From positions 62,001 to 126,000 of the forward strand of contig JAQGDQ010000572.1 in NCBI GenBank assembly GCA_030141605.1: a DNA stretch of 64,000 bases, written 5' to 3'. The notes beneath the pieces were generated by a model. That model ran no database searches. It was given only the letters and a program-made list of their open reading frames with translations, and was not told where the DNA came from. Each line of letters begins with the position of its first letter. Position 1 is the stretch's first letter. This DNA comes from Tubiluchus corallicola. Lineage: Eukaryota; Priapulida; Priapulimorpha; Priapulimorphida; Tubiluchidae. Made by a program: the position numbers and the translations under genes. This document shows positions 19,901 through 57,700 of the stretch, in pieces.

Positions 19901-22900
19901 TAGGAATTAAGCGAGCTTTTGGCACTGTGCCAGATTTTCCTATGCCATGCAATTCCCGTGTTTCTTAAGCATGTTCTACTGTTTTAATGATGCTAGGAAT
20001 TAAGCGAGCTTTTGGCACTGTGCCAGATTTTCTTATGCCATGCAATTCCCGTGTTTCTTAAGCACGTTCTACTGTTTTAATGATGCTATGAATGAGCATT
20101 CTTTCCCCCTATCGGAAAGAAAATTCGGATTGAATTGAATTTTTCACTTTCAAACTCGAATCAAATCGAATTCCAGGATTTCGATCCGAGTTTTAAAGAT
20201 TTTCGAATGATTTATTGAAGTTTGATAACATGTGCAGCAACTGTTCATGTTAACCTAAACCAAAGTGCATATGTGATGTTTGTCTGTTTGTTTGTTTGTT
20301 TACAGAAAGACTGAGAAAGTGAAACTTGTTTGTTTGTTTACAGAAAGTGAAACTTGTGCAGTTGCAAACGATGGATGAAATGTTGGGCGAAACGACGGCT
20401 AACGGTATGCAGATGAAGACGTATCGTTCTAATCCAAACGACAACACCCTAGTCATTCCACTAGAACGGGATAGTTCCCGGGAAGAAACAGGTCATCATC
20501 TAAAATATTTACATTTCTTTTTTTTGGCAAATCTTACTATAACATGCACATGTGTTCTTTTTTGTCTCACGCTGTCAGTATGTTTAAAGCACTGCTGATT
20601 AATGCGCAAAACTAATTTAAAGGACAAGGATATAAATTTCTTCTCAAACTTCCAAGCCTGTCTAACAGATGGAGCCATTTAAGATGTTCTGACTGTTGAC
20701 ATACATATAAAAAGAGTCTTCATTCATACTTTTACAGTTGCTAAATCACAAAACTACTAGTGCACAAATCAAATTCAAAATAGTTTATTAATTTAACATA
20801 TATCATAGTCACAATAAGTTATGTACAATTTTGAAATACAATATGTAATTAGTAAAGTGAAAACTTTAGTAAACCAGTAAAATAAATCACTGGTTTAGTG
20901 AAAATAAATTACATTTTTTCACCGATAATCGTGATATAATTTTTTTTTGAACTTCTGATGCATTCTGGGATTGTGCGTCAGTTAAGTAATGATACATTTT
21001 TCTGGCTGATTTAAACAGTTCGAGTTCCTAACAAATTTCTTTCCTTCTAAGGATCTTTCCTCCTTTCTTTCTTAAGAATATGAAGTATGTTGCTAGACGT
21101 ATAACTTCATTGTTTAGTTTTTCTGAAACCTTTAAATTTGTTGTTCTTCTCCTTTAAGTAAAGTAAACATTAAAGTAAAATAACGCATTTTATTTTTTTA
21201 CATCATATTACAAAGCATGAAAGGATGAGCATTAAATTTGGAGTATTGAGAAACGCTGCCTCATAAGAGACAACAATTCATGTACTCGGTGTAAAAGCAT
21301 CAAACTTGTAATTTCATTGTCTGAACAAGTAAATTTTTTCATCAGTCTGTCACTGCAACAAACAGCAGCCTTCTTTTGGAAACTGCTCAGAACGTTCCAA
21401 GGTTATTGCATCTTTTGCTAAAAAGTGGTGAAATTGTTTAAGTTGGCACTCGAGTGGATACATACAATGAAAACCCGTGAAATTAATGGATCTAAACATT
21501 ATGAAGTAACTCAACTTATTTTTTTCTTGAAATATGCTTCCAGTATATTCCACAATGCTTCATGCTGGAAATTTATAAACTTAGGTAGAGTTATAAATTT
21601 ATTAAAGTACATCAGTTAAGAGCAACTTTTAAAAGCATATTAAAGAACTTATATTAAAGTACATCAGTTAAGAGTAATTTTTAAAAGTATATTAAAGAAC
21701 TTATATTAAAGTACATCAGTTAAGAACAATTTTTAAAAGCATATTAAAGTACATCAGTTAAGTGCAACTTTTAAAAGCATATTAAAGCACTTATATTAAA
21801 GTACATCAGTTAAGAACAATTTTTAAAAGCATATTAAAGTACATCAGTTAAGAGCAACTTTTAAAAGCATATTAAAGCACTTATATTAAAGTACATCAGT
21901 TAAGAACAATTTTTAAAAGCATATTAAAGTACATCAGTTAAGAGCAACTTTTAAAAGCATATTAAAGCACTTATATTAAAGTACATCAGTTAAGAACAAT
22001 TTTTAAAAGCATATTAAAGTACATCAGTTAAGTGCAACTTTTAAAAGCATATTAAAGCACTTATATTAAAGTACATCAGTTAAGTGCAATTTTTAAAAGC
22101 ATATTAAACGTGAATGTTTCAAAGCGTAACTTGTGAATTATAAAGTTAATAGAAGTGGCCTAGTCTGATGTAACATTAACGGCTTAAATGCATACTTGAC
22201 ATATTTTAAGCATAACATAAACTTACGAACAAACAACTCAACTTTTTATGGAAACCCGTTGATGTTCCAAGTTTAGGAAATTTAGATTCTTGGAATTTTT
22301 TCGGTTTTACGTGGCTTTAAATATTTGCTGCCATTTCGCGAAGCTGAGTATTTCAAACAAAGTGAACTCGAACGATAAACTTTAAACAAAATAGCCTGTC
22401 GAAACCGATAGAAATTAAAGACTCGTAAGCCAAGTTTTTTTTCTTCTATTAGTCATAACACATAGCAATATGTATATGTCCATTTACCATCAGAAGAACT
22501 AATTGAGGATTCTTCGTTTTTATAAGATAAGTTAAAATATATTTATTTATCTCCTGGAAGTTTATCAGTACACAGAAACATTCTGACATTTTTAGGTTTA
22601 GTACAATGAAAAATATTTTGTAGTGTAGAAGGAAGTACAAATATAATGTAGTGTAGAGAAAGGGTGGGGAATGACCTTAAGGTCAGCTATGTCAACCACC
22701 CTTATTTTAGAAATTCTGTATTTTTCATACATGGCTGAATAAGCTGATGATTGTGAAATTCAGTTGTTAAAATTCATAAAGATACCAAACCCTTGAACAC
22801 GATAAAATACTGACAGTTTCACAATAGGAGAACTGAATAATATAAACAAAAGCACAATTAAAAATTAACAAAATTAATGCAAAATCGGAATTAATTGACA

Positions 22901-25900
22901 TAATATAATTTTAACCCTTTCAGTCCCAAATTATTTTTTTAATAAGAAAAACTTTTTTAAAAACAAAACAAAAACAAGAAATGTGCTTCATTTTGCAACT
23001 GCTGATAATTTTTGAAAGTATTTAAGACATTTAGTATTCATGCTATGCTGATCTGTACAAAGTCGTATCTAAAGTACTATACCTTTTGCAGTTTTTTATG
23101 CTATGTAGTTTTCTAGTTTGCCATTTTATCACCATTTTAGTCTATTGTTATTGGCTTAAATCAAAATAACTATTAACAGATCAAATAACTGTCAGTTTTA
23201 AAATTTTATTATTTTAAAGGCAGAAAATATTCTCGTATCCCACGGGATACAACGGAGTGTCCATTTCAGGATAAAAGTAACAAAAAACTCTAAGTAAATT
23301 GTTATAATTTTTGATATCATAGTCTCCATGTTGCTTGAATGTTGATTTTTATGTATTGACCGAACTATGTTCTGTCTTAACTTGCTAAAACGAGTAATAA
23401 TCATTTACAATTACACGGCTAATCCAAGCACCGATAACTAATCTTTTGTCCTTTGCGATTTATCTCCACAAGCACTTGCTTTTCTCTGCGTCAACTTATA
23501 CTAATCTGTGTCATTTCTCTTTTTTGCTCTGTCTTTTGCATGGCTGCCATCTTACAGTGACAGTAGTGCCATCTTCAGGCGGTATCAGTAGGCTGCACAG
23601 TGGTCCGTCATTATTGATTCCGCCGCCCCCTCTGTACTCGGGGGATCACAGAAATCTCCTAACAAAGAGTAAGTACTATCTATGCTTTCTTTCATTTAAG
23701 AGTTCGTATCAGTTGTGGCTGGAATGGCACCTTGTGTAACTGGTGTAAGATTCCACTTATGTAGTTAACAGTATGCAGGAATGTTACCAAAATGAGTGTT
23801 TCGTTTCAATTTGCCGATAATTGCACTGTCGGTTAAGTTTCGGTTTCGGCAAAATTTATTAAATTTCGTAGCGGAAGTTTCGAATCATTTTTGGTAAACC
23901 ACCCCATCAAACTTGAGGTTCTATGCTATAAAACTTCCTTGTCCTTTTTGTATTAAAATTTTTATTGGTAATTTTGCATCATAGCAAAGAAAAAGCATAT
24001 CAAACAAACAAAAAACAAAATATTTTACTTTTTTGAATTTTTTTCAGTTTTAATAGTAGTTGATTTTGCAAAAATGTTTCGGTATCGATTTCCTGTATTT
24101 GATAAATTTCAGTTTTGGTTTCGGGATATTACCGAAAGGAAAATTTGCCAATAATTGCATTATCGGTTAAGTTTTGGTTTCGGGATATTACCGAAAGGAA
24201 AATTTGCCAATAATTGCATTATCAGTTAAGTTTTGGTTTCGGAATATTACCGAAAGGAAAATTTGCCAATAATTGCATTATCAGTTAAGTTTTGGTTTCG
24301 GGATATTACCGAAAGGAAAATTTGCCAATAATTGCATTATCGGTTAAGTTTTGGTTTCGGGATATTACCGAAAGGAAAATTTGCCAATAATTGCATTATC
24401 GGTTAAGTTTTGGTTTCGGGATATTACCGAAAGGAAAATTTGCCAATAATTGCATTATCGGTTAAGTTTCGGTTTCGGCTAAATTTATTAAATTAGTTCA
24501 GATAAAGCGAAAATTTTGTTCGCATAAAACTTTGTCACGTGCTTTTACCGGCTCAGTGCCGATTAAATTTGCTCATATGATGCCCATTTTCATGCATGAA
24601 AATCAGAGGCAGCATTATCACATTCACCGCCGAATCATTTTATAGCTCGCCTACTGCTCATAAAAATCGGATGATGTTGATTCAGTGTTGCAATTTTGCT
24701 TATTCAGTTTACAGGGCATTAGTCATGGTTGTTCAACCTGAATCTTCTCTTTATTGTTTCCGTGTTTGCATTAGACTTCTGCGAAAAATTTTATTGCCAT
24801 AAAATGATTTCTATTTCAAAATCATTATTTGGCATAAAACCTGTAAGTAATAATTAATTTTTGTGACTTAATACTCATCGCGGTACGTAAATAACAGTGT
24901 AATTTGTAAGCAGGAAATTGATTTCGCAAGTTTTGTAATATGCAGTTTTCTTTTTGCTTATTGTGCTTCGATTTTTAATAGTCAATAATAGTACAAGTAT
25001 CTTTTCTCGAACTCTAACTAGTTCATGCCTTTTAGCAATAAGGGGAACCGTTTACAATCGTGACTTTTATTCATCTGATATGCTTTACCGTACTTCTGGC
25101 CATTCATGCCCAATATATTCTACTTTCGAAAAAAGAAGAACCTTGGACAACAAAAATAAGATGGATTTCACTTATGCTTAGACTGCCTGATGGTAGTCCA
25201 GTGAAGATAGCTCTTCAGCATGCCATAGAAGCAGCCAGAAAAACCTGCAGGAGGACATATGTTGACATATTTAGATTTTGCACGGAAAGATTTAAACACT
25301 TCAGCATTGATCCTTAGAAATAAATGCACTTGGGGCGTTGCAGCGAGTAGGGAGTCCTGGCATAGGGAGGTGAGCAGAATTCATTGCATGATGATATACT
25401 CTTGATAGATAATAGGAATTCACCATGTAAGGCCGTCAAATACCAAATCATCATCATCTCTGGAGTCATCTACTGACATGATCCTCACAATCTCTTTAGT
25501 TTGGGCTCCCTGTCACCCGCAACCGCCCATGTCTCTGGAGTCACATGTCGTTTGACTTGACCCTCCTGATCACTCTACTCTATGCTCCCTGTCACCCGCA
25601 ACCGCCCATGTCTCTGGAGTCACACGTCGTTTGACTTCACCCTCCTGATCACTTTACTCTATGCTCCCTGTCACCCGCAACCGCCCATGTCTCTGGAGTC
25701 ACATGTCGTTTGACTTGACCCTCCTGATCACTCTACTCCATGCTCCCTGTCACCCGCAACCTCCCATGTCTCTGGAGTCACACGTCGTTTGACTTGACCC
25801 TCCTGATCACTTTACTCTATGCTCCCTGTCACCCGCAACCGCCCATGTCTCTGGAGTCACACGTCGTTTGACTTGACCCTCCTGATCACTCTACTCTATG

Positions 25901-28900
25901 CTCCCTGTCACCCGCAACCGCCCATGTCTCTGGAGTCACACGTCGTTTGACTTGACCCTCCTGATCACTCTCCTCCATGCTCCCTGTCACCCGCAACCTC
26001 CCATGTCTCTGGAGTCACACGTTGTTTGACATGACCCTCCTGATCACTCTACTCCATGCTCCCTGTCACCCGCAACTGCCCATGTCTCTGGAGTCACACG
26101 TCGTTTGACATGACCCTCCTGATCACTCTACTCCATGCTCCCTGTCACCCGCAACTGCCCATGTCTCTGGAGTCACACGTCGTTTGACTTGACCCTCCTG
26201 ATCACCCTACTCCATGCTCCCTGTCACCCGCAACCTCCCATGTCTCTGGAGTCACACGTCGTTTGACTTGACCCTCCGGATCACTCTACTCCATGCTCCC
26301 TGTCACCCGCAACCTCCCATGTCTCTGTATTTTTGATATCTAGTGGTGTTAATAAGATCCTATTAGTTGTAATTGATTTAAGTCAGCAGCTGTCCTCCTT
26401 GTGGTTTCTTTTCTTTCTGCACTGCTTCTTTGAAAGTTGATTTTAATGGACTGTCATCTGATAGTCGCACAACATGTCCCATCCATCTCAGTCTTCTCCG
26501 TTTCATTTGTCCATTCCTCTGCCTTGACTTTCTTATACAGATCCTGGTTTGATATTTTCTGGTTATATAATTACCTGTACATTTTATTATACAGATCCTG
26601 GTTTGATAAATACCACAGATCCATCAAATACTTTTTAGCAACAAGGGAAACCGTTTGCATTGTGTTGTAAATCAACTTATGCAGTAGTTTTTTATCCAAT
26701 GGCTATGAACTTTCTACTGCAGATCTATCACACACCTTTTGGCAATAAGGGAAACCTTTTACATTGTGTTGTAAATCAACTTATGCAGTAGTTTTTTTAT
26801 CCAATAGTTATGAACTGCAGATCTATCACGCACCTTTTGGCAATAAGCGAAACCTTTTACATTGTGTTGTACGTCAACTTATGCAGTAATTTTTTTATCC
26901 AATGGCTATCAACTTTGTGCCCATCAAGCACCTTTTAGTACATGTAATAAGGCAAATCTTTGCATTGTATTGTACATTGCCTTATGCAGCAATCTTTTAT
27001 CCAATGGCTATCAACTTTACTAGGTATCTCGACTGTGCCACGAGTCATTACAAATCCAGGTAAGGAAATACGGTATCGTCAGCTTTTCAGTTCGGCTTCT
27101 AGACACGTAACCTAGTTTCCTTACCTGTTCGTTTGAAGATATTTACACCTCGCTACAATTTTGCTGAAGCATGAAAATCTCTTTTTAACAGCTCTTCTGT
27201 TAATGCTTTGTATGTATGGCCTCAAATGTGAACTAAAAATCGTTATTATCTACGTGTTGCTATAGGTTTTACATGTCAAATGTAGACCTGCGTTAACTCA
27301 AATGTAGATTTAGGTAATTCAAATGTGTCTTGGTAACTCAAATGTAGACTTGGGTAGTTCAAATGTGTTAACAATGGTTTTCAACAAATCTTGAGTGCTT
27401 TTGGTAAGTGAAATGTAGACACATGTGAAGTCAAATGTGACATTGGTATCTCAAATGTGGATAGGTGGTAAAGTTTAAGGATGTTAAATTTAATCTTCTT
27501 TAATTTCAATTTAATAATTGCTCTTAAGCTAAAATAACAACGTTATAGGTTCACTAATATTCTGCAAACTTTACATACCATTGGAACTGTTAGAGAAAAC
27601 AATGCATTCTTAAAATGTTTCTTGAGAGAAACTAATTCATTAATGCAGTGCTAATGCGTTACTTAAAAAACTAATTAGTGATTCACTGTTCATTGGGAAG
27701 TGGGAACCAATTTCTTCTTTTCTGCCGACATTATGGTTAATCAAAGAATTTCGTTTGATGATAAACAACGCATTTTTCAAAGTTATTTGAATTTGCATTT
27801 GGTTTTATCTTTTCATCAAAATTCCTATGTCTACATTTGACTTACCTAAGTCACATTTGAACTTTCCTGTGTCTACATTTGACGTGTAAAACCTATAATA
27901 GTTCAGTAGCGGTGGCGTTCAGTAACGTTTAGAATTTTAGAACCATTTAAAACAATGAAAAGAATAGTCAAAGTCCATTAAAAGGACTGTAACTTGGAAC
28001 CCATTGTTTTTTCCGACCTTGCATTCATAAACGCCTGTACAGTGTACCGCAGCATGGCTGCTAAGACGCTATACCGGAGTAAGTTTATATTATTTTCCAC
28101 AAGTTTTAGGATCGATTTTTGAACAGGAACTTTTTTAGTACTACAGTTGGTAATTTTGCTCACGAGTGGATAAGTGTGGGGGTGTCACAATACACCAAAA
28201 GTACAGACAAAAAGTACTGATTGCTATTGTGAGCCATGATTTGCGTGACTACATTTAAGCATGACTACTGCAGTTCGTTGCTACTAGGTGGCGTATTTTT
28301 CTGTTGTGCAGTTTTGCATAATGTGGATTTGCAACTTAAACTTCTTGTGATATTATACTGGATGATAACTCTTCTATCATAGTTTAAATCAGTAGTTGAC
28401 TTGGTAACTTAGGCCTAGGTGCAGTTTTTTATTGCATCATGAACTGCTGATTTTGCTCACTATGCATAATATTTAAAGCACAAGAAAACCCTCCACTTAC
28501 GTGAAGCTTAAAAAAACTCGTCTTGAAATTTTATACCACTTACTGCCTTTTTGCATGCAGGGCTTGCGTCGGCAGTAACACTGTGTAAAACTTCTAAATT
28601 TAAACACCCGCGATGACTGTTAGGTGCAGCCATTTTAATGGTAGGTCATTTGAAACAAGTTTGGATAACATTGTGTGAAGTTTGAAAAAATAATCAGAGC
28701 ATTCGTAGCACATGTATTACTAATAAAGTAAAATTTTAAAATGCTGTACCTTGTCAATAAGATTAAAAATACGTTTTTGGTTAGTGAGTGGCGCACCATG
28801 GAGGGTGAGCCAGTGGCATTTTACCAATTAGCACAAACATTTTACCAGCAGGTAAGCGAAATGCTAAGTAATATACAATTGCACGGGTAAAGTTTTTGGG

Positions 28901-30092
28901 ACATATTTTAACGCTGTCTTTTCTTCCCCTGATTTATGTTTGCGCTGATGATGTCATGTAATGACGCAGTCGGAACAGTATTGCGGGAGATTTAAAATGA
29001 AGAGAAACAAAAATTCCTTTTAAACAGAGTACGATATACGCATAAAAATGCTGTAAAGTAGTATAATAATTTTTAAGGCGATTTTTCTGAAACCTACTTC
29101 ACGTACCCCTTTTCTTATCTTTTTGAGGCTGAACCAGTAGATTTTATGTTTTACTAGTTTGTATGCCTTACGAACTAACTTTGATTGTTGCATGCATATG
29201 CAACCTGAATATGGTTAAGTTTTGATTGGTGGTTTCATAAAATGTATTTATTGTAAAAAAGGTGGATTTGCTTTTACGATTTAATGCCACTTTCGGAGAT
29301 CATTTTTTACATTAGTGTACTGTGTGCATGCGGGTTTTTATCTAGCCTGAAATGCGTTGTGATTTGGCGGTTTATTTGTACACGTGACTGCAGCGGAGTT
29401 TGATGCGAAACCAGTGAATGTGCAAAAACCTGGATTTCTGTGATAATAACGTCAGGAGGACTGGGACAATAAAATGAGTAAACTGTAAATTGTCTTTCGT
29501 GCAAAAAAAAACATTGTTGATCTTACACGTTCAGCCCTCTGAAATAAACGATGTTGGCAGAGAGATAGACTTGTTCATGCATTTTGTGCGGTAGAATCGC
29601 TTCGCACACAAAAAGTTTTTCGTAGTTGCAATCGCACGCCGCACATGCCGCACATTTCTTGGCCTTTATTTCGAAAACGAAATGCACGTTTTAGTGAACA
29701 TATGCAAAAATTATGCATGCTTTGCATATTTTTTTCAAGACTTTCATGCATAGAATTATGCATAGACTTTCAAGATACGCACAATCGCGCATATAATTTC
29801 CTCGTTTTTTTTCTTAGATATCGAGATATGCATCTTCCTGGCCGACAGGTCGGGGGTGGAGTTCACGGTGGAGGGAGGCAAGCTAGCCACCGCGCAGGAC
29901 CTCCACGAGCTCGTAGTGGAGCTGCTGGAGATGCCGTCCGTCGCCAAGGAGCTCTTTGCCTTGTGGGTAGTTTCACCGTTTCTTGGTAAGCAACGTTGTC
30001 CTCGTAGAAGAAATGCGGACGCTTTAAATTGGTGTTTTTCATGTAACTGCTTCATGGCTTTGCATTGTGTGACAATGCCATTTAACTAATAC

Positions 30093-30130
<38 letters not shown>

Positions 30131-33100
30131 CTATTTAACGGGTGCTGTTAAAACTGTTGCTATTACGCTAGCTTGTCAGTGTTGCAATTACAGCAGGTGT
30201 TGTCAAGTGTACACAAATGCGTTGTCTGGTACATTTAACCTTTGACCTTTTCACGATCATCAATCGCTCGAACTGTGAAAAAGCTTATTGTCTCACAAAA
30301 CAAATTCGCTTATATACCTATAATATGGGTAACATTTTTTCTTTGTCTGTTTTGCGTGTCACAAGTTTCATTTTTCAGAGATACAATTGAAACCACATCA
30401 CATTCCGTTCAGAATTGTCCAGCAGTGGCCGGAATTATTACTCAAGTACACAATGTGCAGCAATCGAGACGTAAACAATGGTAAGTGCCAGGCAAGTAGC
30501 AATGGCTTCACAAATGCGATAATTCTCTAAATAATTGCCTTGATGTAAGAGACAGACATTTTTAGTGACCTATAATAAAACAGTAAAATCTGCCGAGTAA
30601 ATTTCGACGTCTTTTAATTCAATTAGGTTTTAGCGGAAGTCGCTTTGCTAGCAATAATGGCTTCTTCTGAAACCAATAAACTTTTACGGCATGGAAATGG
30701 CTTCGTCGTAGTCGGTTTTCTCTTAGCTTCACTTGATTAGGGATCATTTAAAGGAAGATAGGATGATTTTTGATATCCTACAACATTTTTAGTCTGATAA
30801 AGAGTACAGTTAATGCTACAAAAACGTCTTAATTAACGGCAAGCGAGCCCAACTACAGATGACATCACAAACTAACATAATTTTCAACAGCAAAAATATT
30901 TCACGAGCGTGTTGCACGTGTTTGCGAAAGCGAAAATTGAAGTACAGCGTTGCCGTAAGGTATTCAGTGTGTTGCGCTAAAACTAGAAAACTTGGTAAAT
31001 GACGTGTACGAGTTTCGTGAAACTACTTGCCATTAGTTGCTTTGTAAAAAGAAATACAGTGTTCCCTCGCTACTTCGTGATTTGTTTATCGCGGACTCGC
31101 TGTTTTGCGGGTTTTCAAAAATATTAATGTAAAATATTTATCTCAGTATTTTCGCTGTTGCGCGGGTTTTTGCGGTACTCCGTCTAAAGTATTTTTGCAC
31201 CTGTGTAGTACGTATTGTACAGTAATATATAGATTTGATGAATTTTGCATAAAAAAATCACAAAATGTATAAAAATATATCTAAAATATAAATTCTAACA
31301 TTAAAAGAATATTATAAATCATAAAAAATTACCATTTACGGTAAATAGTATATTTATTCGGCGGATGAATACACACCGAAAACGAAATATAGTACTTGCG
31401 CCCGTTTGAGATGCTATTTGCCGACGTAGCGTCCCTACTTCACTGAAATTCACTTATCGCGGGTGGGCCTGGAACGGAACACTCGGGATAAGTGAGGGAA
31501 CACTGTATTTAATTTACTTTTGCATTTTAAGTAAGTAATTTTATCCGTGCATATTGTCCAGTGATTTCAATATATTTAATTGTATATTAAAATGCAATAA
31601 ATGTTATTCGAAGGTTGGTTTTTACTTCAACGTGACAATTTTAAACAAAGTGTTCATACGTGATTAGATAGTAAGCGAACGTTTTCTTGTGTGATGTTTT
31701 TGTTTTTGTTGTGGGATGTTTTTGTTTTTGATCGTGTTTAAATGTCCGCGTTTTGGCTTTGCAGACGAACCACTATTGATGTTTCGGAGAAATGCTTTCT
31801 TTCCAAAATCCAGGGAGAAGGAGGTATGCAGCGTGTTAACTTATTTTTGCAGTGGTCATCTTTATCTGCTTTGTAAATTATCATTGCCATGGTTACCAAC
31901 TGGAAGAATTTCTTCATATTCTTTGTACTCGGCTCGAGTAATTTGCTTGTTAAAATAAAAAGAAGTGCTTAAATGTTTTGTCTTTCAAACATTTTTTATG
32001 AAAGTGGCAAAAAGTTGCTTCACCATTGTTGTTTATCCTGAATGTATATGAATGAAACTCCTAGTCAGGTAACTGTAGAATACTTAAGCTTTGCTGGACG
32101 GTGCTTTGTGCTTTTAGGACATACATACACAATGACGTGCACATGTAGTTGTTTCTAAGACGTACACATTGATGTACACATGTAGTGTTTCTAAGACATA
32201 CACATTGATGTGCACATATAGTGTTTCTAAGACATACACATTGAGGTGTCCATATAGTGTTTCTAAGACATATACGTTAATATGCACATGTAGTTGTTTC
32301 TAAAACATACACGTTGATGCGAACATATAGCGTTTCTAAGACGTACACATTGATGTGCACATGTAGTGTTTCTAAGACATACACATTGATGTGCACATGT
32401 AGTGTTTCTAAGACATACACATTGATGTGCACATGTAGTGTTTCTAAGACATACACATTGATGTGCACATGTAGTGTTTCTAAGACATACACATTGATGT
32501 GCACATGTAGTGTTTCTAAAACCTACACATTGATGCGCACATGTAGTGTTTCTAAGACATACACATTGATGTGCACATGTAGTGTTTCTAAAACATACAC
32601 ATTGATGTGCACATGTAGTGTTTCTAAAACCTACACATTGATGCGCACATGTAGTGTTTCTAAAACATACACATTGAGGTGTCCATATAGTGTTTCTAAG
32701 ACATATACGTTAATATGCACATGTAGTTGTTTCTAAAACATACACGTTGATGCGAACATATAGCGTTTCTAAGACGTACACATTGATGTGCACATGTAGT
32801 GTTTCTAAGCATACACATTGATGTGCACATGTAGTGTTTCTAAGACATACACATTGATGTGCACATGTAGTGTTTCTAAGACATACACATTGATGTGCAC
32901 ATGTAGTGTTTCTAAGACATACACATTGATGTGCACATGTAGTGTTTCTAAGACATACACATTGATGTGCACATGTAGTGTTTCTAAGACATACACATTG
33001 ATGTGCACATGTAGTGTTTCTAAGACATACACATTGATGTGCACATGTAGTGTTTCTAAGACATACACATTGATGTGCACATGTAGTGTTTCTAAGACAT

Positions 33101-36100
33101 ACACATTGATGTGCACATGTAGTGTTTCTAAAACCTACACATTGATGTGCACATGTAGTGTTTCTAAGACATACACATTGATGTGCACATGTAGTGTTTC
33201 TAAGACATACACATTGATGTGCACATGTAGTGTTTCTAAGACATACACATTGATGTGCACATGTAGTGTTTCTAAGACATACACATTGACGTGCACATGT
33301 AGTGTTTCTAAGACATACACATTGATGCGCACATGTAGTGTTTCTAAGACATACACATTGATGTGCACATGTAGTGTTTCTGAGACATACACATTGACGT
33401 GCACATGTAATGTTTCTAAAACAGACATCGATGTGCACATGCATAATGAAGTCGATTACTTTGCAAACTTTACAGGTGTCTGATGATGAGTTGATACGAC
33501 TTCTCTACGAAGAAGCCAGATTTAATGTGGTTGAGGGACGGTATCCTTGCTCAGAGGAGGATGCTTTGACATTAGCCGGCTTACAAGCTACCATTGAATA
33601 CCGGCAGCATGATCCATTGCAGCATAAACCTTCGTTCTTCAGGTACATGCTCTCATTTCATTTCATTCGTTTATAAAATGCCGTCCAGCAACAGCTGAAG
33701 GTGTTTCTAGAATGCATAATCCCCATTTGCAGACATCTGGGGTATGAGGGCAGATATTATGTGTTCTTATAAGATGATGCAAGTATCTCGCGATTTGAAC
33801 TCATTTCTTGCCGTCTCACCTTTGCTTTTGCTATAGTAAATAAAAAGATCAATAAATTTTGAAAATACTGAATGAATTATTATTATTATTATTATTATTA
33901 CTATGACCCAGCGGCCATGTGTAGAGGAGTAAACCTTCCAAATCAGGAGTGGAGCCCTGAAGGCCGAGCAGCGCAGCATGCTCGCTGACTCCGGCAGCTC
34001 CTGCAGCCAACCTCGCTCCGCTTTCCTTTGGACTACACCAGGGAGGAAGAGAGGGGGTTCCTGTTGTCTGGGCAACTCAGAATCTCCATACACCTTGCCC
34101 AGCCGTGCGCCCTGGAGAGGCCATTCCAGTGGTTCAAAGATGGGACTGCTCAGCCACAGTTGACGCTGCAGCTCCATCAATGTGATCAATAACTGACTCT
34201 CTTGGCGCACACTCCGTTGTCTTCCGAGACAGAAGGATGCCAACAACAAATGGTTAATGTTGTATTACCTCATTTCAATGGCTTTTACATCCTAATGTGA
34301 GCCTTTTCATTTTTAGAGACAAAGTAGTGCTGTTTCTACCGGAAAAGTATCAGAAGTCGAGCTTGTTCAGAACTAGACCGGAGGAAAAAATTGCGCAACA
34401 CTTTGCAAACACGCCAACGAACAATCGAATCTCATTGCATCAGTCTTATCTAGAACTTTGCTGGCAGATGCCGTATTACGGGTGAGTTTTATTCCTGTAT
34501 TTAACTCCCCGTCATTATTTTGATTAATGTGTGCATAATTGTGATTGCGAAGACACGTTTATTTTTCCTTGCTAACAAACAGCGTTAGCACAGATGTCTA
34601 TTTAGCGACTTATACTTACAATCTATAAAATAAAGACACACGCATAGCAAGGGATGGGCGATTAATAGATTAATCGAGATTACAACCATGTATGAATAGA
34701 TAAAATCGGCTACTGAACAGTAATTCAGATAATCATTAATCTTACAGGTTACGATTAATTAAGATTAATCTTGATTATCTGAATAATTAAAATTACAGGT
34801 TAAACAAATCAAGTCCCTATCAGCATTTAAAACAAAATTAAAATCACTAATATTAACCAGATATGAAATACCATCACACCAGTACGACAACATACACACT
34901 AATTCAGAATTCATATATCCACGGCCATATTAATTAAATCATAATTTTTTCATTTTTTTGTGCATAGTTGTAAATATGTTTGATTTTATTCGTCGTTACT
35001 TTCCATTACTGCACAGTAGTTTAGATTGCACTGACGCATTTGCCTTTAGCAGTGTAAGTTTTTATTAACTAACACTGATTGATCATCTCTGTAAAGTTTT
35101 TATCGGTGATTATCAATGTATTTTAATGGCAAATAAAGATTATTATATATATATATATATATATAGTCCATAGCAAAAATATACGTGTTCAACACATACT
35201 AAAAGCTAACGTGTTAGCACAAATAAACGTTAATTCCCGCATTTTTTCTTCGTTTTTCTTGCCTTGCACAATGAGCACAATTGCAAACCACAGTGTTGCA
35301 AATTTCAAATTTATTTTCACATGACGAGTGTAGTTGACATAGAAATAAAGAAGTTAGCAAATGTGCATGTCTGCAATAGTTTGTGGGTTGGGATGAAATT
35401 GGCAGACAGCACTGAAAGCCATGAAGAAATTTATAAGCTATATATTAATGCTGCAATGTTCGAAAAATATTGCTAAAATACTAAAAAAATACCGGAAAAG
35501 ATTAATCGTGATATCTCGAATACAAGAACAAGATTGTAGTCGAATTAGAAAATTTAGATAAACTGTTAAAGAATGTTAATTAGACTGAAGAGGTGAACAA
35601 AAAGTGAACATAAAAATGTTAATTAGGCTGAGAAGGTGAACAAAAAGTGAACATAAAAATGTTAATTAGGCTGAGAAGGTGAACAAAAAGTGAACATAAA
35701 AATTGTAATTAGGCTGAAGAGGTGAACAAAAAGTGAACATAAAAATGTTAATTAGGCTGAAGAGGTGAACAAAAAGTGAACATAAAAATGTTAATTAGGC
35801 TGAAGACAAGAACAAAAAGTGAACATAAATATGTTAATTAGGCTGAAGAGGTGAACAAAAAGTGAACATAAAAATGTTAATTAGGCTGAAGAGGTGAACA
35901 AAAAGTGAACATAAAAATGTTAATTAGGCTGAAGAGAAGAACAAAAAGTGAACATAAAAATGTTAATTAGGCTGAAGAGGTGAACAAAAAGTGAACATAA
36001 AAATGTTAATTAGGCTGAAGACAAGAACAAAAAGTGAACATAAAAATGTTAATTAGGCTGAAGACAAGAACAAAAAGTGAACATAAAAATGTTAATTAGG

Positions 36101-39100
36101 CTGAAGAGAAGAACAAAAAGTGAACATAAAAATGTTAATTAGGCTGAAGAGGTGAACAAAAAGTGAACATAAAAATGTTAATTAGGCTGAAGACAAGAAC
36201 AAAAAGTGAACATAAAAATGTTAATTAGGCTGAAGACAAGAACAAAAAGTGAACATAAAAATGTTAATTAGGCTGAAGAGGTGAACAAAAAGTGAACATA
36301 AAAATGTTAATTAGGCTGAAGAGCTGAACAAAAAGTGAACATCAAAATGTTAATTAGGCTGAAGACAAGAACAAAAAATGAACATAAAAATGTTAATTAG
36401 GCTGAAGACAAGAACAAAAAGTGAACATCAAAATGTTAATTAGGCTGAAGACAAGAACAAAAAATGAACATAAAAATGTTAATTAGGCTGAAGAGGTGAA
36501 CAAAACATAAACATGAACACAGAAAACCTATACCTGCTAACACACTGAAGCCACTGCAAGCAAGACAGGAAATCTTATTGAACAAGTTTCCTTACAAACT
36601 GGTATTAGATAAAGTAGTTCGGCGCACACTCTCTTGCTCATATGGTGTACAGCTCATAAAGTGGCCAGTTCATTTTGAAGTTTTGTAACGACATTGTATG
36701 TTTATTTTTAAGATACTAATTGTCGTTTACATTGAGAATTCTCTAAGTGCAGTTTAACATCTGTTAAATAAATAAAGAAATTTTTTAATGAAAATTTAAT
36801 ATATTCACAACTGTATTTAATGTAGTGTGAGAATTCCTCTTGTAAATTAATAGCATCACTTGTTTTACGTAATGCTTTTGGAATTGTACGTTCACAGCTC
36901 TGCTTTGTGAGTGTAAACTGTGCTGCCATCTACGTCGTTCGTTATTTTTACCAGTGGCTCCATCTTTCTCGTTTAGCTCGGCGTTTTTCTCCGGTCAAAT
37001 CGAACGACCAACGACAATGTTGAAAACTTGGATGCAAAATGTCGACATTGACGTCTGGTTGGCTGTCAACACGTCGAGCGCTTTCATCATCGACAAGGAA
37101 AAAAATGTACGCTATTTTCCACTTTTTTACCTAAATGTACGCTATTTTCCACTTTTTTACCTAAATGTACGGTATTTTCCACTTTTTTACCTAAATGTTC
37201 GGTATTTTCCACTTTTTTACCTAAATGTACAGTATTTTCCACTTTTTTACCTAAATATACGGTATTTTCCACTTTTTTACCTAATTGTACGGTATTTTCC
37301 ACGTTTTTACCTAAATGTACGGTATTTTCCACTTTTTTACCTAAATGTACGGTATTTTCCACTTTTTTACCTAAATGTATGCTATTTTCCACTTTTTTAC
37401 CTAAATGTACGGTATTTTCCACTTTTTTACCTAAATGTTCGGTATTTTCCACTTTTTTACCTAAATGTACAGTATTTTCCACTTTTTTACCTAAATATAC
37501 GGTATTTTCCACTTTTTTACCTAATTGTACGGTATTTTCCACTTTTTTACCTAAATGTACGGTATTTTCCACTTTTTTACCTAAATGTACGGTATTTTCC
37601 ACTTTTTTACCTAAATGTACAGTATTTTCCACTTTTTTACCTAAATGTACGGTATTTTCCACTTTTTTACCTAAATGTACAGTATTTTCCACTTTTTTAC
37701 CTAAATGTACAGTATTTTCCACTTTTTTACCTAAATGTACGGTATTTTCCACTTTTTTACCTAAATGTACAGTATTTTCAACTTTTTTACCTAAATGTAT
37801 GCTATTTTCCACTTTTTTACCTAAATATACGGTATTTTCCACTTTTTTACCTAAATGTTCGGTATTTTCCACTTTTTTACCTAAATGTACAGTATTTTCC
37901 ACTTTTTTACCTAAATGTACGGTATTTTCCACTTTTTTACCTAAATGTACAGTATTTTCCACTTTTTTACCTAAATGTATGCTATTTTCCACTTTTTTAC
38001 CTAAATATACGGTATTTTCCACTTTTTTACCTAAATGTTCGGTATTTTCCACTTTTTTACCTAAATGTACGGTATTTTCCACTTTTTTACCTAAATGTTC
38101 GGTATTTTCCACTTTTTTACCTAAATGTACGGTATTTTCCACTTTTTTACCTAAATGTTCGGTATTTTCCACTTTTTTACCTAAATGTACAGTATTTTCC
38201 ACTTTTTTACCTAAATGTACGGTATTTTCCACTTTTTTACCTAAATGTACGGTATTTTCCACTTTTTTACCTAAATGTACGGTATTTTCCACTTTTTTAC
38301 CTAAATGTACAGTATTTTCCACTTTTTTACCTAAATGTACGGTATTTCCACTTTTTACCTAAATGTACGGTATTTTCCACTTTTTTACCTAAATGTATGG
38401 TATTTCCACTTTTTACCTAAATGTACGGTATTTTCCACTTTTTTACCTAAATGTACGGTATTTTCCACTTTTTTACCTAAATGTATGGTATTTTCCACTT
38501 TTTTACCTAAATGTACGGTATTTTCCACTTTTTTACCTAAATGTACGGTATTTTCCACTTTTTTACCTAAATGTATGGTATTTCCACTTTTTACCTAAAT
38601 GTACGGTATTTTCCACTTTTTTACCTAAATGTACGGTATTTTCCACTTTTTTACCTAAATGTACGGTATTTTCCACTTTTTTACCTAAATGTACGGTATT
38701 TTCCACTTTTTTACCTAAATGTACGGTATTTTCCACTTTTTTACCTAAATGTACGGTATTTCCACTTTTTACCTAAATGTACGGTATTTTCCACTTTTTT
38801 ACCTAACTGTTTTATAGGTTTAACATGTCAAATGTAGACCTGCATTAACTCAAATGTAGATTTAGGTAATTCAAATGTGTCTTGGTAACTCAAATGTAGA
38901 TTTAGGTAATTCAAATATGTCTTGGTAACTCAAATGTAGATTTAGGTAATTCAAATGTGTCTTGGTAACTCAAATGTAGATTTAGGTAGTTCAAATGTGT
39001 TAACAATGGTTTTCAACAAATCTTAAGCGTTTTTGGTAAGTGAAATGTAGACACATGTCAAGTCTAATGTGACATTGGTATCTCAAATGTGGATAGGTGG

Positions 39101-42100
39101 TAAAGTTTAAGGATATTAAATTTAATCTTCTTTAATTTCAATTTAATAATTGCTCTTAAGTTAAAATAACAACGTTATAGGTCTACTAATGGCTCACTAA
39201 TATTCTGTAAACTTTACATACCACTGGAACTGTTAGAGAAAACAATACATTCTTAAAATAAACAATTTTTCTTGAGAGAAACTAATTCATTAATGCAGTG
39301 CTAATGCATTACTTAAAAAACTAATTAGTGATTCACTGTTCATTAGGAAGTGGGAACCGATTTATTCTTTTCTGCCGACATTTTTTGTAAAACGTTGACA
39401 AATAAAATGTAGACTTCTATGTCTACATTTGACTTACCTAAGTCACATTTGAACTTTCCTGTGTCTACATTTGACGTGTAAAACCTATATAATATTTTGT
39501 TAAACCATTTACAGACTTGCAGTGCAGTTTACTTTCGACCTTCAAAAATCCAGAGTTTTCTTTTACTTTTTGAAGTATGAAACCTTGTAAATTAAACTTT
39601 AATTTATGACCAAACGGTTTTGTAATCGATAATCGTTATTTTAAGCATCATACATTTTGCACCTTGCATCAAACCATTCTGAATGACCAATTTATGTTCT
39701 TTTGCGTAGTACTTTAAAGGAAAACCGGATGATTGTGTAAACACGAGTTCAGAATAAGGAATGCTCTGAAATATTGAAAACTACAATAGCTCATTTTAAA
39801 TCAAAGCTTAGGTTAAATGATAATTACCTCGGATAGTCATATTTCGTTAAACTTTTGAAGCTACACGCCGCTCAGTGAATCTACTAAGATTGGCAGCGGC
39901 ACCTTTTTGTCACATTCACGTGGTCGAGAAATAGAAGGCGGTACCGTGATAACCATGATACTGAACTGCAGTGTTAGTTTCATGATGTCATATCATGTAA
40001 AGCCCATTTTTCGTGACATCATGCGTTTAAACAGTACTGTAACACTTATGCAAATGTGCTTGATGCGCAAGGGAAGACGCCTGCCATTGCACAAACTGTG
40101 GTTAGTTTCTGACGTAAGCAATAGCTGTGTTTGGTTGCCGTTAATTAACTTTCTAAGCTAATTCAAATATAAATTGTTAACAATTATTAACTTTTGTATG
40201 TGAGAAAATGTATATTTTAGACAGTAAATTAAAATGAGATTGATCCGGTTTTCCTTTAATGGGAAAAGTGTTTTTAGACAAATATGATATCTTTTCTCTT
40301 TCATGAAAGTTGTACAAAATCTCATTAACCTTTCTCTAAATTTTTGAGTTAACGTTTTTCGTTTACTTAACATTTCTCCCATTAAAAATGTAAAGTGGAG
40401 GAAATCAGTGGGGCGTGTTTAGCGATGTGGGATGAAAAATGCTACTACTTATGTTAAGGCTGATGTTGCGTTTTTTGTTTTTTCTGTACTGATTCGCTAA
40501 TCTGATTGCATTGCTTGCGCTAAACATGTACGAACAAATAATTACCAAATAAGGAGGACCCCAAAGAGTTTCAATTAATGTCATCATCAGTGAAAATCAG
40601 ATTCTTGTTTTCATGTTCATGCCGCTAGTTCTTCGCTATCACATGCATTTCGCCATTTGCTAGTTAGACGGGCACTACTGCCTGCATTTTGGAAACGCGT
40701 TATACAAAAACAGGTGCTGTACCTGTCAGTAATAGATGTGTTAGTTTCTGATGAACTGCACACGTTCGACAACTCATGCGCAATGTTTGAAATTTGAATT
40801 TTTGTCTTAAAACTTGTCTAGTTTTAGTACAACAAACTGAATATTTTACAGTAGTACTGTACTTCAATTTTGGCTTTCACAAACACGTGCAACCCACTTG
40901 TAAAATATTTTTGGTATTGAAAATTATGTTAGTTTGTGATGTCATGAAAATGGACTTGAAAATGGGATAGTATGTAAAAAAAATCATGCTGTCTTCCTTT
41001 AATGGAAGTATCAATTATTTTTTCTTTGACTATTGGTGAAACATATAGGACTGATTTGTGTGTGTGTATGAAACTGTGAATATTAAAGTGCAATGAGTTC
41101 TATGCAAATTCTAGCTAACTTTCAAGTTTACACTTATTTGTAACATTTTCTTCATTAATACTGAAATGTAAAAATATCATTTCTTGTGCTCACAGCTATT
41201 TACTCTTGTTATCTCTTTTTCTGCAGGATGTTCTACTTGCTCTCCCGTTTGAGAAACTTTCCTGGGAATACGCAAAACCCTCCAAGGAGGGGGAGGGACA
41301 TTTGCCGTGCCTCTTTCTGCAGTTTGCTCCCTGCGATAAAGACGGATCCTCGCAATCCTGTACAAAACTTTTACAGGTGTTCTCTAAACAGGTATTTCAT
41401 AACATTTCGTACAAAAATCTTCGTATATAAGGTACTTGGATATAAGGGACTTTTGGTGATAAGGGACGATATCTTCAGGTCCCGCGTAATAGAAACCCAG
41501 GTAAATTACCTCGCATATAAGGGCCTCATGATCAAATTTTACATCCGTAAAAGCCTATGGCAAGACCCCGTGCGGACCCGACTATCTTCCCGTGGATCTG
41601 GTAGTTCCAGGAACTTTCTGAAAACACACACTGTGCATGCGTGACGCATCTCAGCCAATCACAACGTCCCGAATAAATTATGCGGCAGGCGGTGATTGGC
41701 CGATTCAACGGCGGATATAAGGGACGATTTTTTCCGGTCTGAAGGTGTCCCTTATATCCGAGGTTAACTGTAATAATTATTAGTATGCAAATGAACAAAA
41801 CACATGGTTTGTTTGTAGGTAGCATCTAAGCGAATGTGTCTGTATTATCTTCAACTATAAATAATGTTAATCTAATAAATAATATTGTTGATTCATACTT
41901 TCAACCGCCATTACGAACGCAGTACTTAAGCAAATTTTGTCGTGTAATACATGGTTAGAAAGCCCGGGAAATTCTCTACCTAACCCCATATAGTTTGCTC
42001 AAAAGTAACTTAAGGCTTAAAAAAATTACTCAAACCCTAGTTGTAAAATCGCCATATTCGGACTAAATTTTCTTAAGTACTGCGTTCGTAATGGTGGTTG

Positions 42101-46248: not shown

Positions 46249-46692
46249 TATAGGTTTTACACGTCAAATGTAGACACAGGAAAGTTTAAATGTGACTTAG
46301 GTAAGTCAAATGTAGATGCATTACTTTGAATAAATCGGTAATTAAGTTATTTGAGTGCAAATTAGAAAAAGATAAACCAAAGATAGTGCATCTATTAGTA
46401 GGCCTATAACGTTGTTATTTTACCTTAGGAGCAATTATTAATTTGAAATTAAAGAAGATTAAATTTAACATCCTTAAACTTTACCACCTATCCACATTTG
46501 AGATACCAATGTCACATTTGACTTGACATGTGTCTACATTTGACTTACCAAAAAACGCTTAAGATTTCTTGAAAACCATTGTTAACACATTTGAACTACC
46601 TAAGTCTACATTTGAGTTACCAAGACACATTTGAATTACCTAAATCTACATTTGACTTAATGTAGGTCTACATTTGACATGTAAAACCTATA
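46249..46692. mobile_element. TCAAATGTAGAC MITE, copy 3 (short, inverted)
   Basis: ATAGGTTTTACACGTCAAAT ... TTTGACATGTAAAACCTATA, 444 bp. It begins 175 bp after the FRMD8 stop and carries AATAAA at 46329. Confidence 0.85.
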
Positions 46693-54700: not shown

Positions 54701-57700
54701 CGACATTGACGAGAGAGAAATTCATGATCGCAATATGAAATGGTTGGACCAGGCTGAATGTAAGCAGTTTTCTTTGCTATGATCCTTAACAATAATAGTC
54801 CTTAAAGCAGGGATGAGAATTTTCCGCGGATATGTGGAATTCCGAGTTTTTGGAAGACCAGTAGTGCCATTTTTGTAAATCGCGTAAATTCGTTGAGAAA
54901 ATCCAGTACATTATTTCACAAGCTGACCGCTAGTTGGCAGACCGTCACTTTGTTTACGTCACGTACATCAGTGTAACCACGTGTATATCTCTATGTATAA
55001 AAATATAGAATCAATTGTGCAGAGTTATTTGAGTCAATTGCAGACAGTTTTTATATACTTTTACATAGGAGCGGCCAGTACTTAGGCATTTTTGAGACAA
55101 TTAGGTATCATGTATCCTTGATAGTTGTGGTATTTTAAATTATGCATGAAACAAGGTAAGTAATATTTTAAGTCCACTTAGAGGCTCTCTATGGCCTACG
55201 CGGCCCCCAAACCCCCGGCCTGTTTCAGAGTTTTTTTGCAATTTCTCATTCTCTTCCCTGCCTTAAGGCATGTTTCTTCCCATTCTAAACACGAAGTTTT
55301 GTTTAAAATAATGAGTGCAGCATTAAAAGAAATCAGACTCATCTTAAAGTATGGTCCAAAATGATCTGTCCTGTAAAGTATTGAAAGCGAACTTTTTTCA
55401 AGAATGTCTTGCGTAAATGAATTATTATGACAGAATGGTAACTTCGTGTTCGCACAACTAGTTCTTCGCTATTACATGTATATCACCATTTACTAGTTAA
55501 CTAGACACTAGTGCGTGTATCTCGGATATCGATTGCACAGAAAACGGGTGCTGTACCTTTCACTTCTGCGGTGTTCAATTGTGATGTACAGCTCAAATCT
55601 GTACAGTACCACTGCATTTCAGTTTTCGCAAAGACGTGGAATGTTTTTGTTGTTGAAAATTACGTTCAATCATGACGTCATCACTAGTTGGGCTGTGCTG
55701 CGATAATTTATGTTTTTAAATCGATTATATAAGTATTATCAGAAGTTCTTTGGCATTTTTATAAGTCTTAAAATGTTCAATTTTTACCATATTTCAAAAT
55801 GGGTTAGGATATGAAAACTGATCTTGTTTTCCATTGAAGGAAAACTGGACAATTGTTTAGACTCAATCTCGTTTTAATTTACTGTCTCAAATATACGTTT
55901 TCTTGCCTATAAAAGTTAGTAATTGTTTCTTATATTTGAATAATTAACTTAGGAAGTAAATTAACGGCAACCGAACAAAATGGCGCCTTTGCCAATCTTA
56001 GTAGATTCGCTGAGTCGCGCGTAGCTTTGAAAGTTTAACGAAATTTGAGCATTCGGGGTAATTATTACTTAATTCGAAAAAAAGCTATTGTAGTTTTCAA
56101 TATTTTAGAGCATACTTTATTCTGAACTCGTGTTTACACAATCGTCTAGTTTTCCTTTGACTATTTTCATTACTACGAGTTATTTTAACAGTGTTTAAGT
56201 CTAAAAATTAGCATAATGTTGTATTAATTAATTAGCTAATAATTAATTAGTCAACTTATAATAATTGTGTATAAACAGTGTCGTCAAATGCTTGCAAAGA
56301 CTTAATATTTAGTGATACGAAGCTGGAATTGCATTTCTGCTTTGAGTTGATTTTCATTGCTTTTGCCTTTTATACATACACTAACACCTAAAAAATGTCA
56401 TGAGCCTGTGAGTAAACTTGTATTTTTAATAAGGGGCAGCTGACCAAGTGACCAATAGGTCTTTGGCTGCTCCTTCTCAGTTGCAATGAAATGTAAAAAT
56501 AATTATGACGAATTTTAACTGCTGTTGAGAAAATAAAATTGAATTGAATTTAAGCAGCTTTCAACTGGGTAAGTTTGAGCAATTGCTTTATTAAAGTCAA
56601 ATCTTAGTATTGCTGCAAATGTGCATACTTACACGAGTGATGACTTCTGCATGTGATTATATTTTTTGGCAATGCTGCTTTTCCGACGAATTTTTTCATT
56701 TTATCATACGTGTTTTTTTGCTTTAGTCGTGGTAGCCGAGGTAACAGTTCCGTCGTTAGGCGTCGGCTATGAGATTGGACAAGCTATTAATATGGAAAAG
56801 AAAGTGCTGTGCCTCTTTAGGGAGTCAAGTGGAAAATGTAAGTTGAGTATTTCTAGTGTTATGCTTATGTGTAATCTTATGTATGTACGTAGTTTATTGA
56901 CTAAAACAAGTTACATGTATACACAAGGAACGAGGTAAATGCCACAATCGATACATTAGTGATTTTAGTCCAAATGATGCCACCTTCAGGTGTTCTTGTT
57001 AAAATTGTTAAATCTTTCTCTTTACTGTTTAAATTTTCATTGGCTTCTACAGTTTATGAATGCATAATCTGTAAACCTGTTTTCACACCTAAATGATTTC
57101 ACCTGTAGTTTTGGTCACTTGGTTTTCTGCTTTTCAACATGACACTACTTTGCTGATTATGTAGACACTTCAGAATAAAATCTTAAAACTAAATTTCAAG
57201 TTTTTTGGTTTCTTCAAACCAAAACTTACGTAGAGAAATATATGGTCTATGCGTTCACAACCTTGGGATCGCGGGATTGTCCAAAAACTATTTTTTTTAA
57301 AAATGCTGTTTTCATTAAAAGTATATAAGTAGGTCTTGTTTCCCCAGTCTCTCATTACATCGTTTTGTTCTGGAAAGTGAAACCATGTTATACAGGTTTT
57401 ACAAATCAAATGTAGACCGACGTTAACTCAAATGTAGATTTGGGTAATTCAAATGTGTCTTGGTAACTCAAATGTAGACGTAGGTAGTTCAAATGTGTTA
57501 ACAATGGTTTTCAAGACATCTTAAGCGTTTTTGGTTAGTCAAATGTACACACATGTCAAGTCAAATGTGACATTGGTATCTCAAATGTGGATAGGTGTTA
57601 AAGTTTAAGGATGTTAAATTTAATCTTCTTTAATTTCAATTTAATAATTGCTCTTAAGTTAAAATAGCAACGTTATAGGTCTACTAATGGCTCACTAATA

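Follow-up and report, generated by a model that had tools for sequence, protein, structure and literature searches.

Minisatellites that copy a splice junction have been described in other animals. In amphioxus (PMC3087553), such arrays, called 'mirages', vary in length and carry AG/GT signals in many of their units, with unit lengths of 10-72 bp in Adh3 and 150-160 bp in the globins. RT-PCR in amphioxus suggests that regular splicing is not disturbed, and the arrays are put forward as a possible route to intron gain (PMC3087553). The human ABCA7 gene has a 25-bp VNTR in intron 18 that opens on the donor GT of exon 18 (PMC5954066). According to that paper, retention of one unit amounts to 2 ± 1% in tissues and is constant with VNTR length, exon 19 skipping rises and expression falls with VNTR length, and the alternative forms together exceed the canonical form in 90% of BA10 brain samples (PMC5954066). 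In human IFI6 (6-16, G1P3), a minisatellite 'provides multiple splice donor sites', in the words of the title of Turri et al. 1995 as given in PMC4526556; PMC4526556 itself reports that splicing also uses two repeat units further downstream, so that three mRNA species arise. The array described below is a further example of this known kind, preceded by the amphioxus mirages, ABCA7 and IFI6, and the idea that a tandem array can form a ladder of splice donors is already known.

We analysed a window of 64,000 nucleotides of the priapulid Tubiluchus corallicola, in which a 30-bp minisatellite starts on the end of an exon of a FERM-domain gene, called FRMD8 here. As in the mirages, its unit spans the exon-intron boundary and copies a splice signal (GT in 53 of 57 units), and arrays of this sort recur in this genome in several genes and at both 5′ and 3′ boundaries (L079, L116, L143 and L023 below). 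The unit length of 30 bp also falls within the amphioxus values cited. In contrast, FRMD8 has 57 units over 1.7 kb, where two BflGb6 haplotypes are reported with 6 and 3 units, and its unit length is divisible by three and leaves a reading frame open. As in ABCA7, the array opens with the exon's ordinary donor GT and the unit is of similar size, but retention of 25 bp shifts the reading frame and 30 bp preserves it; moreover, ABCA7 comes with RNA and population data. IFI6, unlike FRMD8, is an interferon-induced gene whose donors are reported as used. The IFI6 minisatellite has a 12-bp unit.

The exon junction and the array that starts on it

The locus lies on contig C1377 of an assembly of 343.5 Mb in 2,344 contigs, in which a search for COX1 found no match, and the plus strand carries a FERM-domain gene of the FRMD8/KRIT1 type. 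The name FRMD8 was given in a preliminary description of this DNA; it is a putative assignment that fits the Pfam model KRIT1_FRMD8_FERM_C. The exon numbers 10 and 11 come from the same description and are provisional for the 5′ part of the gene. A putative F1-lobe exon ending at 29985 and its neighbour were both assigned by eye and had no Pfam match. An F2 exon (FERM_M) follows at 33476-33642. The exon that precedes exon 10 (34317-34481) belongs to the FERM F2 lobe, is backed by the FERM_M match of the joined exons and ends in ...CWQMPYYG, with the donor CGG|GTGAGT at 34482. Exon 10 (36977-37106, 130 nt) starts the F3 lobe and was placed by its acceptor, its translation, the Pfam match with exon 11 and the KRIT1 alignment. 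Exon 11 (41227-41391) reads DVLLALPFEKLSWEY... and its end is the second of two possible donors. All of these exons are on the plus strand. Exon 10 ends on the whole codon AAT and exon 11 starts with GAT, so that the junction is in phase 0, as had been claimed.

Several observations bear on the position of the exon 10 donor. When the four exons (F2, preceding, 10 and 11) were joined, Pfam returned FERM_M with 59.9 bits and KRIT1_FRMD8_FERM_C with 34.9 bits (cut-off 29); exons 10 and 11 joined gave the latter with 35.3 bits at the same cut-off, in a match that spans the junction. Exon 10 alone had zero matches in the Protein Data Bank or Pfam because it is short. With the preceding exons added, the best Protein Data Bank matches of exons 10 and 11 were KRIT1 chains (E 8e-14), and the KRIT1 alignment, made with a query that lacked ten residues of the preceding exon, has no gap at the exon 10/11 junction and no inserted decapeptide. 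Taken together, the Pfam match over the junction and the gapless alignment indicate that the donor at 37107 is well placed. An earlier donor inside exon 10 was rejected, as the exonic GT sites score at most -0.04 and homology continues as far as the codon that precedes the array. The exon has a single match in the whole assembly, which also speaks against a second haplotype or a paralogue there. Between the array and exon 11, the only site that scores at least 3 with a general donor matrix is a candidate donor, TTG|GTAAGT, at 39036-39041 of the plus strand (score 4.38).

TRF places the array at 37103-38810, with a period of 30 and 57.2 copies. A unit-by-unit split gives 57 units (37103-38804, plus strand, 1.7 kb) that share the last 4 bases of exon 10; 53 of them are 30 bp long and four are 28 bp long, the latter starting at 38333, 38391, 38569 and 38747. 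Unit 1 (37103-37132) includes the exon end at 37106 and the authentic donor GTACGC (37107-37112), and it is identical in sequence to unit 2, both reading AAT|GTACGC. The donor GT is kept in 53 of the 57 units and replaced by AT in the other four, and the exact form AAT|GTACGG occurs in 27. These counts bear out the earlier statements that the array begins on the last codon and donor of exon 10, comprises about 57 units and mostly repeats AAT|GTACGG or a close variant.

The exon 10 frame was also said to run open through the array to 38420. It does so, ending at a stop codon at 38418-38420, but its openness was rejected as evidence of coding: a second plus-strand frame (436 codons) and a minus-strand frame (423 codons) are also open across most of the array. 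The array itself is far beyond chance and the open frame is not. The proposal that splicing from the k-th copy to exon 11 would insert k decapeptides without a frame shift applies to part of the array. Units 1-41 (37103-38332, plus strand) are all 30 bp long and hold their donors in frame, whereas among units 42-57 (38333-38804, plus strand) the four 28-bp units disrupt the register. In total, 38 unit donors, the authentic one included, are in frame with exon 11 and free of stops, the last of them at 38337.

Twelve unit types occur in mixed order along the array. By eye, units 3-9 resemble units 11-17, but no exact run of at least five unit types recurs within the array, and the best lag was reached by 934 of 5000 shuffles, so that the order lies within what shuffling gives and internal exchange is no more than plausible. 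In a candidate-limited search of the 343-Mb assembly, with one candidate scored, all 25 matches to the unit fell at this locus and none outside it, and a dispersed or transposon-borne repeat was rejected within the reach of that search. Since the array starts at the junction, its unit was found nowhere else in that search and exon 10 is single, the junction itself is the most likely origin of the repeat.

Donor copies and the choice among them

The authentic donor AAT|GTACGC had been called weak, with little advantage over its copies, and the scores agree. It reaches 0.59 with the general matrix and 1.03 with a matrix fitted to this genome, the latter value lying within chance for the best GT of an intron stretch (median -0.25, 95% 3.24). 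The fitted matrix, a biased one, was built from the best GT near the end of each exon match, present in 174 of 176; by this measure the donor is weak without being extreme, 32% of the fitted exon ends scoring the same or less. The four other placed donors of the gene all score above it. The commonest copy, AAT|GTACGG, scores much the same (0.85 general, 0.51 fitted), as does AAT|GTATGC (0.15 and 1.38). Predicted pairing with U1 is weaker for the authentic donor (-0.7 kcal/mol) than for the other main types, AAT|GTACGG (-3.8) and the out-of-frame ACG|GTATTT (-4.4). The possibility that a changed U1 turns GTACGG into a strong site was considered and rejected, as ATACTTACCTG is present in all four U1 loci read, out of 11 matches.

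Scoring each unit, a check that had been suggested with the ladder idea, gave a mixed result. Units 1-41 hold 37 in-frame donors: 14 AAT|GTACGG, 10 AAT|GTACAG, 6 AAT|GTTCGG, 3 AAT|GTATGC, 2 AAT|GTACGC and 2 ATT|GTACGG. Nineteen of the 37 are of types that score about as the authentic donor does, and the other 18 (the GTACAG, GTTCGG and ATT|GTACGG types) score lower. Interleaved with them, 5 nt further on, are 36 out-of-frame GT sites, namely 20 ACG|GTATTT (-0.61 general, 1.02 fitted), 10 ACA|GTATTT and 6 TCG|GTATTT (-2.11 and 0.06); the 16 sites of the ACA and TCG types score below ACG|GTATTT. The GTACAG, GTTCGG, ATT and ACA forms fall below -1 with both matrices. Judging from these sequences, donor competition would yield frame-shifted products besides in-frame ones.

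Variation within the 30-bp units is concentrated in the donor part, where 6 of 10 positions vary, compared with 2 of 20 elsewhere in the unit (P 0.007). A CpG accounts for two of the six, its C and its G showing the C>T and G>A changes of CpG decay, and mutation of this sort may explain part of the variation in the donor segment. The donor copies look unconstrained, a pattern opposite to that of selection for working copies. Right after each donor copy comes a U-rich stretch, TATTTTCCACTTTTTTACC, with two single substitutions in the 53 30-bp units. The 28-bp units additionally lose two T in their pyrimidine part.

Based on these observations, we think it fairly probable that this is a tolerated splice-junction minisatellite of the 'mirage' kind, in which the first donor is mainly used and perhaps a few percent of transcripts are extended. 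The ancestral segment would have comprised the last four bases of exon 10, the donor and about 26 intron bases; a tandem duplication would have copied it, and slippage or unequal exchange may then have multiplied it. Because the first donor remains in place, splicing from 37107 would still give the normal protein, and the growing array could be tolerated as intron. The copies would compete weakly, with 37107 used for the most part. By analogy with ABCA7, IFI6 and amphioxus, minor forms of a few percent would include in-frame products with 10 or 20 additional residues and frame-shifted ones from the site 5 nt on, all declining with copy number. The array itself probably has no selected function. 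In favour of this reading, unit 1 holds the junction and equals unit 2, and it is in the donor segment that the units vary. The lack of outside matches in the candidate-limited search, the KRIT1 alignment with no decapeptide inserted, the donor- and acceptor-copying arrays at other exons (below) and the low unit retention in ABCA7 also speak for it. Against it, many copies score as well as the authentic donor does, which pairs worse with U1; without such an advantage, dominance of the first site would have to rest on exon context and transcription order. In addition, the ABCA7 array is not harmless, given its exon 19 skipping.

Two other outcomes of donor competition were weighed against tolerance. 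The preliminary description proposed a ladder of competing donors, with many in-frame copies used substantially, VRYFPLFYLN inserted from once to tens of times, and allele length setting the range. Its geometry, its phase and the many similarly scoring copies hold up: counting the authentic one, 38 unit donors are in frame and free of stops, the commonest copy scores about as the authentic donor does, and two downstream repeat units are employed in IFI6 as reported. What does not fit is that 20 of the 36 interleaved out-of-frame sites have a similar score, that in units 1-41 roughly one in-frame copy in two is weaker, and that no part of the unit varies more than the donor segment. The cases cited are reported to use the first unit or two only, and an F3 lobe with long hydrophobic insertions would probably fold poorly. 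We consider substantial use of many copies unlikely. The 36 out-of-frame sites in the first 41 units and the weak authentic donor would also suit another effect, in which frame-shifted forms, intron retention or exon skipping cut the normal mRNA and longer alleles give less protein. ABCA7 lends this some weight, since in the cited data exon 19 skipping increases and expression decreases as its VNTR lengthens, and alternative forms can outweigh the canonical one in brain. Nevertheless, the unit-retention form of ABCA7 is given as constant with length and regular splicing in amphioxus as undisturbed, and we regard a length-dependent loss of normal FRMD8 mRNA as unlikely.

The sequence behind the donors allows another role, one in which the array would help rather than disturb splicing. 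TIA proteins are described as binding U-rich sequence beside 5′ splice sites and recruiting U1, and each unit combines a weak donor with TATTTTCCACTTTTTTACC, which is almost invariant in the 30-bp units; TIA1-type proteins could in this manner recruit U1 and offset the weakness of the authentic donor. Yet a single stretch after the first donor would be enough, sameness of the pyrimidine part is also explicable by homogenisation, and the variation in the donors is in part CpG decay, all of which makes a helper function very unlikely. An assembly artefact or a misassigned junction is extremely improbable. One assembly is the sole source of the array, but twelve unit types in mixed order and like arrays at other loci argue against an artefact, and the position of the junction is fixed by homology. 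A tolerated minisatellite thus remains the reading that we favour. The array offers an unusually long natural series of near-identical competing 5′ splice sites with the same downstream context, on which the spliceosome's choice between equal donors could be tested directly.

Arrays at other splice junctions

With regard to FERM genes, the sample comprised 23 of the 25 exon matches listed, in 20 regions of 5 kb each, and left out the window's own match and that of contig C2270. One of the 23, a kindlin exon (L023; assembly G000, contig C1963, region 35000-40000, exon 37086-37205 on the minus strand), has a 28-bp array of about 4.6 copies that runs into the start of the exon and repeats its 3′ splice site, CTTTTACAG. 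The best matches of this exon are Fermitin family homologs 2 and 3. The related exon in L026 has no array.

A wider survey covered 176 exon matches of four families (177 were cut from 342, and L070 was dropped), with 200 bases examined on each side for the first 139 and 350 for the last 37. In three of the 176 a tandem array beginning at the exon end copies the donor, or 1.7% (95% interval 0.35-4.9%) of a sample that favours short matches, up to about 310 nt, and is not independent, several matches sharing genes and some cuts overlapping. These are a myosin exon on contig C2144 (L079/L173; 36 bp, 9.9 copies, ATG|GTAAGT), a kinase exon on C1769 (L116/L174; 71 bp, 5.0 copies) and a CDK12/13-like exon on C662 (L143/L175; 25 bp), the last with an array that reaches the end of the cut. 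All three come from the first 139 exons, and the second batch of 37 added none. In L203 and L145, donor-side arrays begin within the intron, about 84 and 90 bases from its start. An array beginning on the exon end is therefore seen in three of the five donor-side arrays with TRF scores of at least 150, giving P of about 0.02 if starts were uniform. This is only suggestive of an enrichment of array starts at donors, as the test was framed post hoc after the first three and the second batch supplied no more.

On the acceptor side, none of the 176 has its acceptor inside an array with a TRF score of at least 150, and one array (L122) ends about 65 bases before its exon. Weaker tandem duplications near exon starts (scores 40-70, e.g. 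L057, L114 and L151) were left out of this count. Two of them lie at or near the starts of kinase exons, at 206-226 of L151 (11 bp, 1.9 copies) and 174-210 of L114 (15 bp, 2.4 copies), and are possible early acceptor-side arrays.

As for the reading frame, the 36-bp unit of L079 is also a multiple of three, but it meets a stop in the first repeat, and L116 has a stop immediately after. A long open frame was found in FRMD8 only among these donor arrays, and in a 10-codon unit it can be luck. One could go further and suppose that splice-junction minisatellites are pervasive here, at the order of 1-2% of exon ends, and that some of them (a multiple of three and stop-free, such as that of FRMD8 exon 10) generate protein length variants that depend on allele length; we think this quite unlikely. 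The presence of the same type of array at other exons suggests that tandem arrays regularly grow out of splice junctions in this genome. This recurrence bears on intron growth and, following the proposal made for amphioxus, on intron gain, and it is the part most worth following.

Other repeats were noted along the way. A 36-bp minisatellite at 32123-33441 (about 36.6 copies) stops some 35 bases short of the FERM_M exon's acceptor, which it does not include; its units carry TTTCTAAG, which is possibly branch-point-like. Overall, 13 merged arrays with scores of at least 150 (positions 10544-43054) make up 14.7% of the window, whereas the share in the sampled 100 kb of FERM loci is 2.8%, and the FRMD8 locus is unusually rich in minisatellites. 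Elsewhere, contig C917 carries two inverted myosin gene copies (20400-23919 and 90660-94210) in which several exons have identical match scores, reflecting either a recent palindromic duplication or an assembly join. Finally, a unit of about 21 bp, TCAAATGTAGA..., and its reverse complement occur in the window in short arrays about 420-460 bases apart, at 38846-39000 and 39417-39474, 27276-27366 and 27822-27882, and 57406-57496 and 57957-58009, with a further array at 46587-46677. One copy stands directly behind the 30-bp array. These arrays look like the ends of a dispersed mobile element with inverted repeats.
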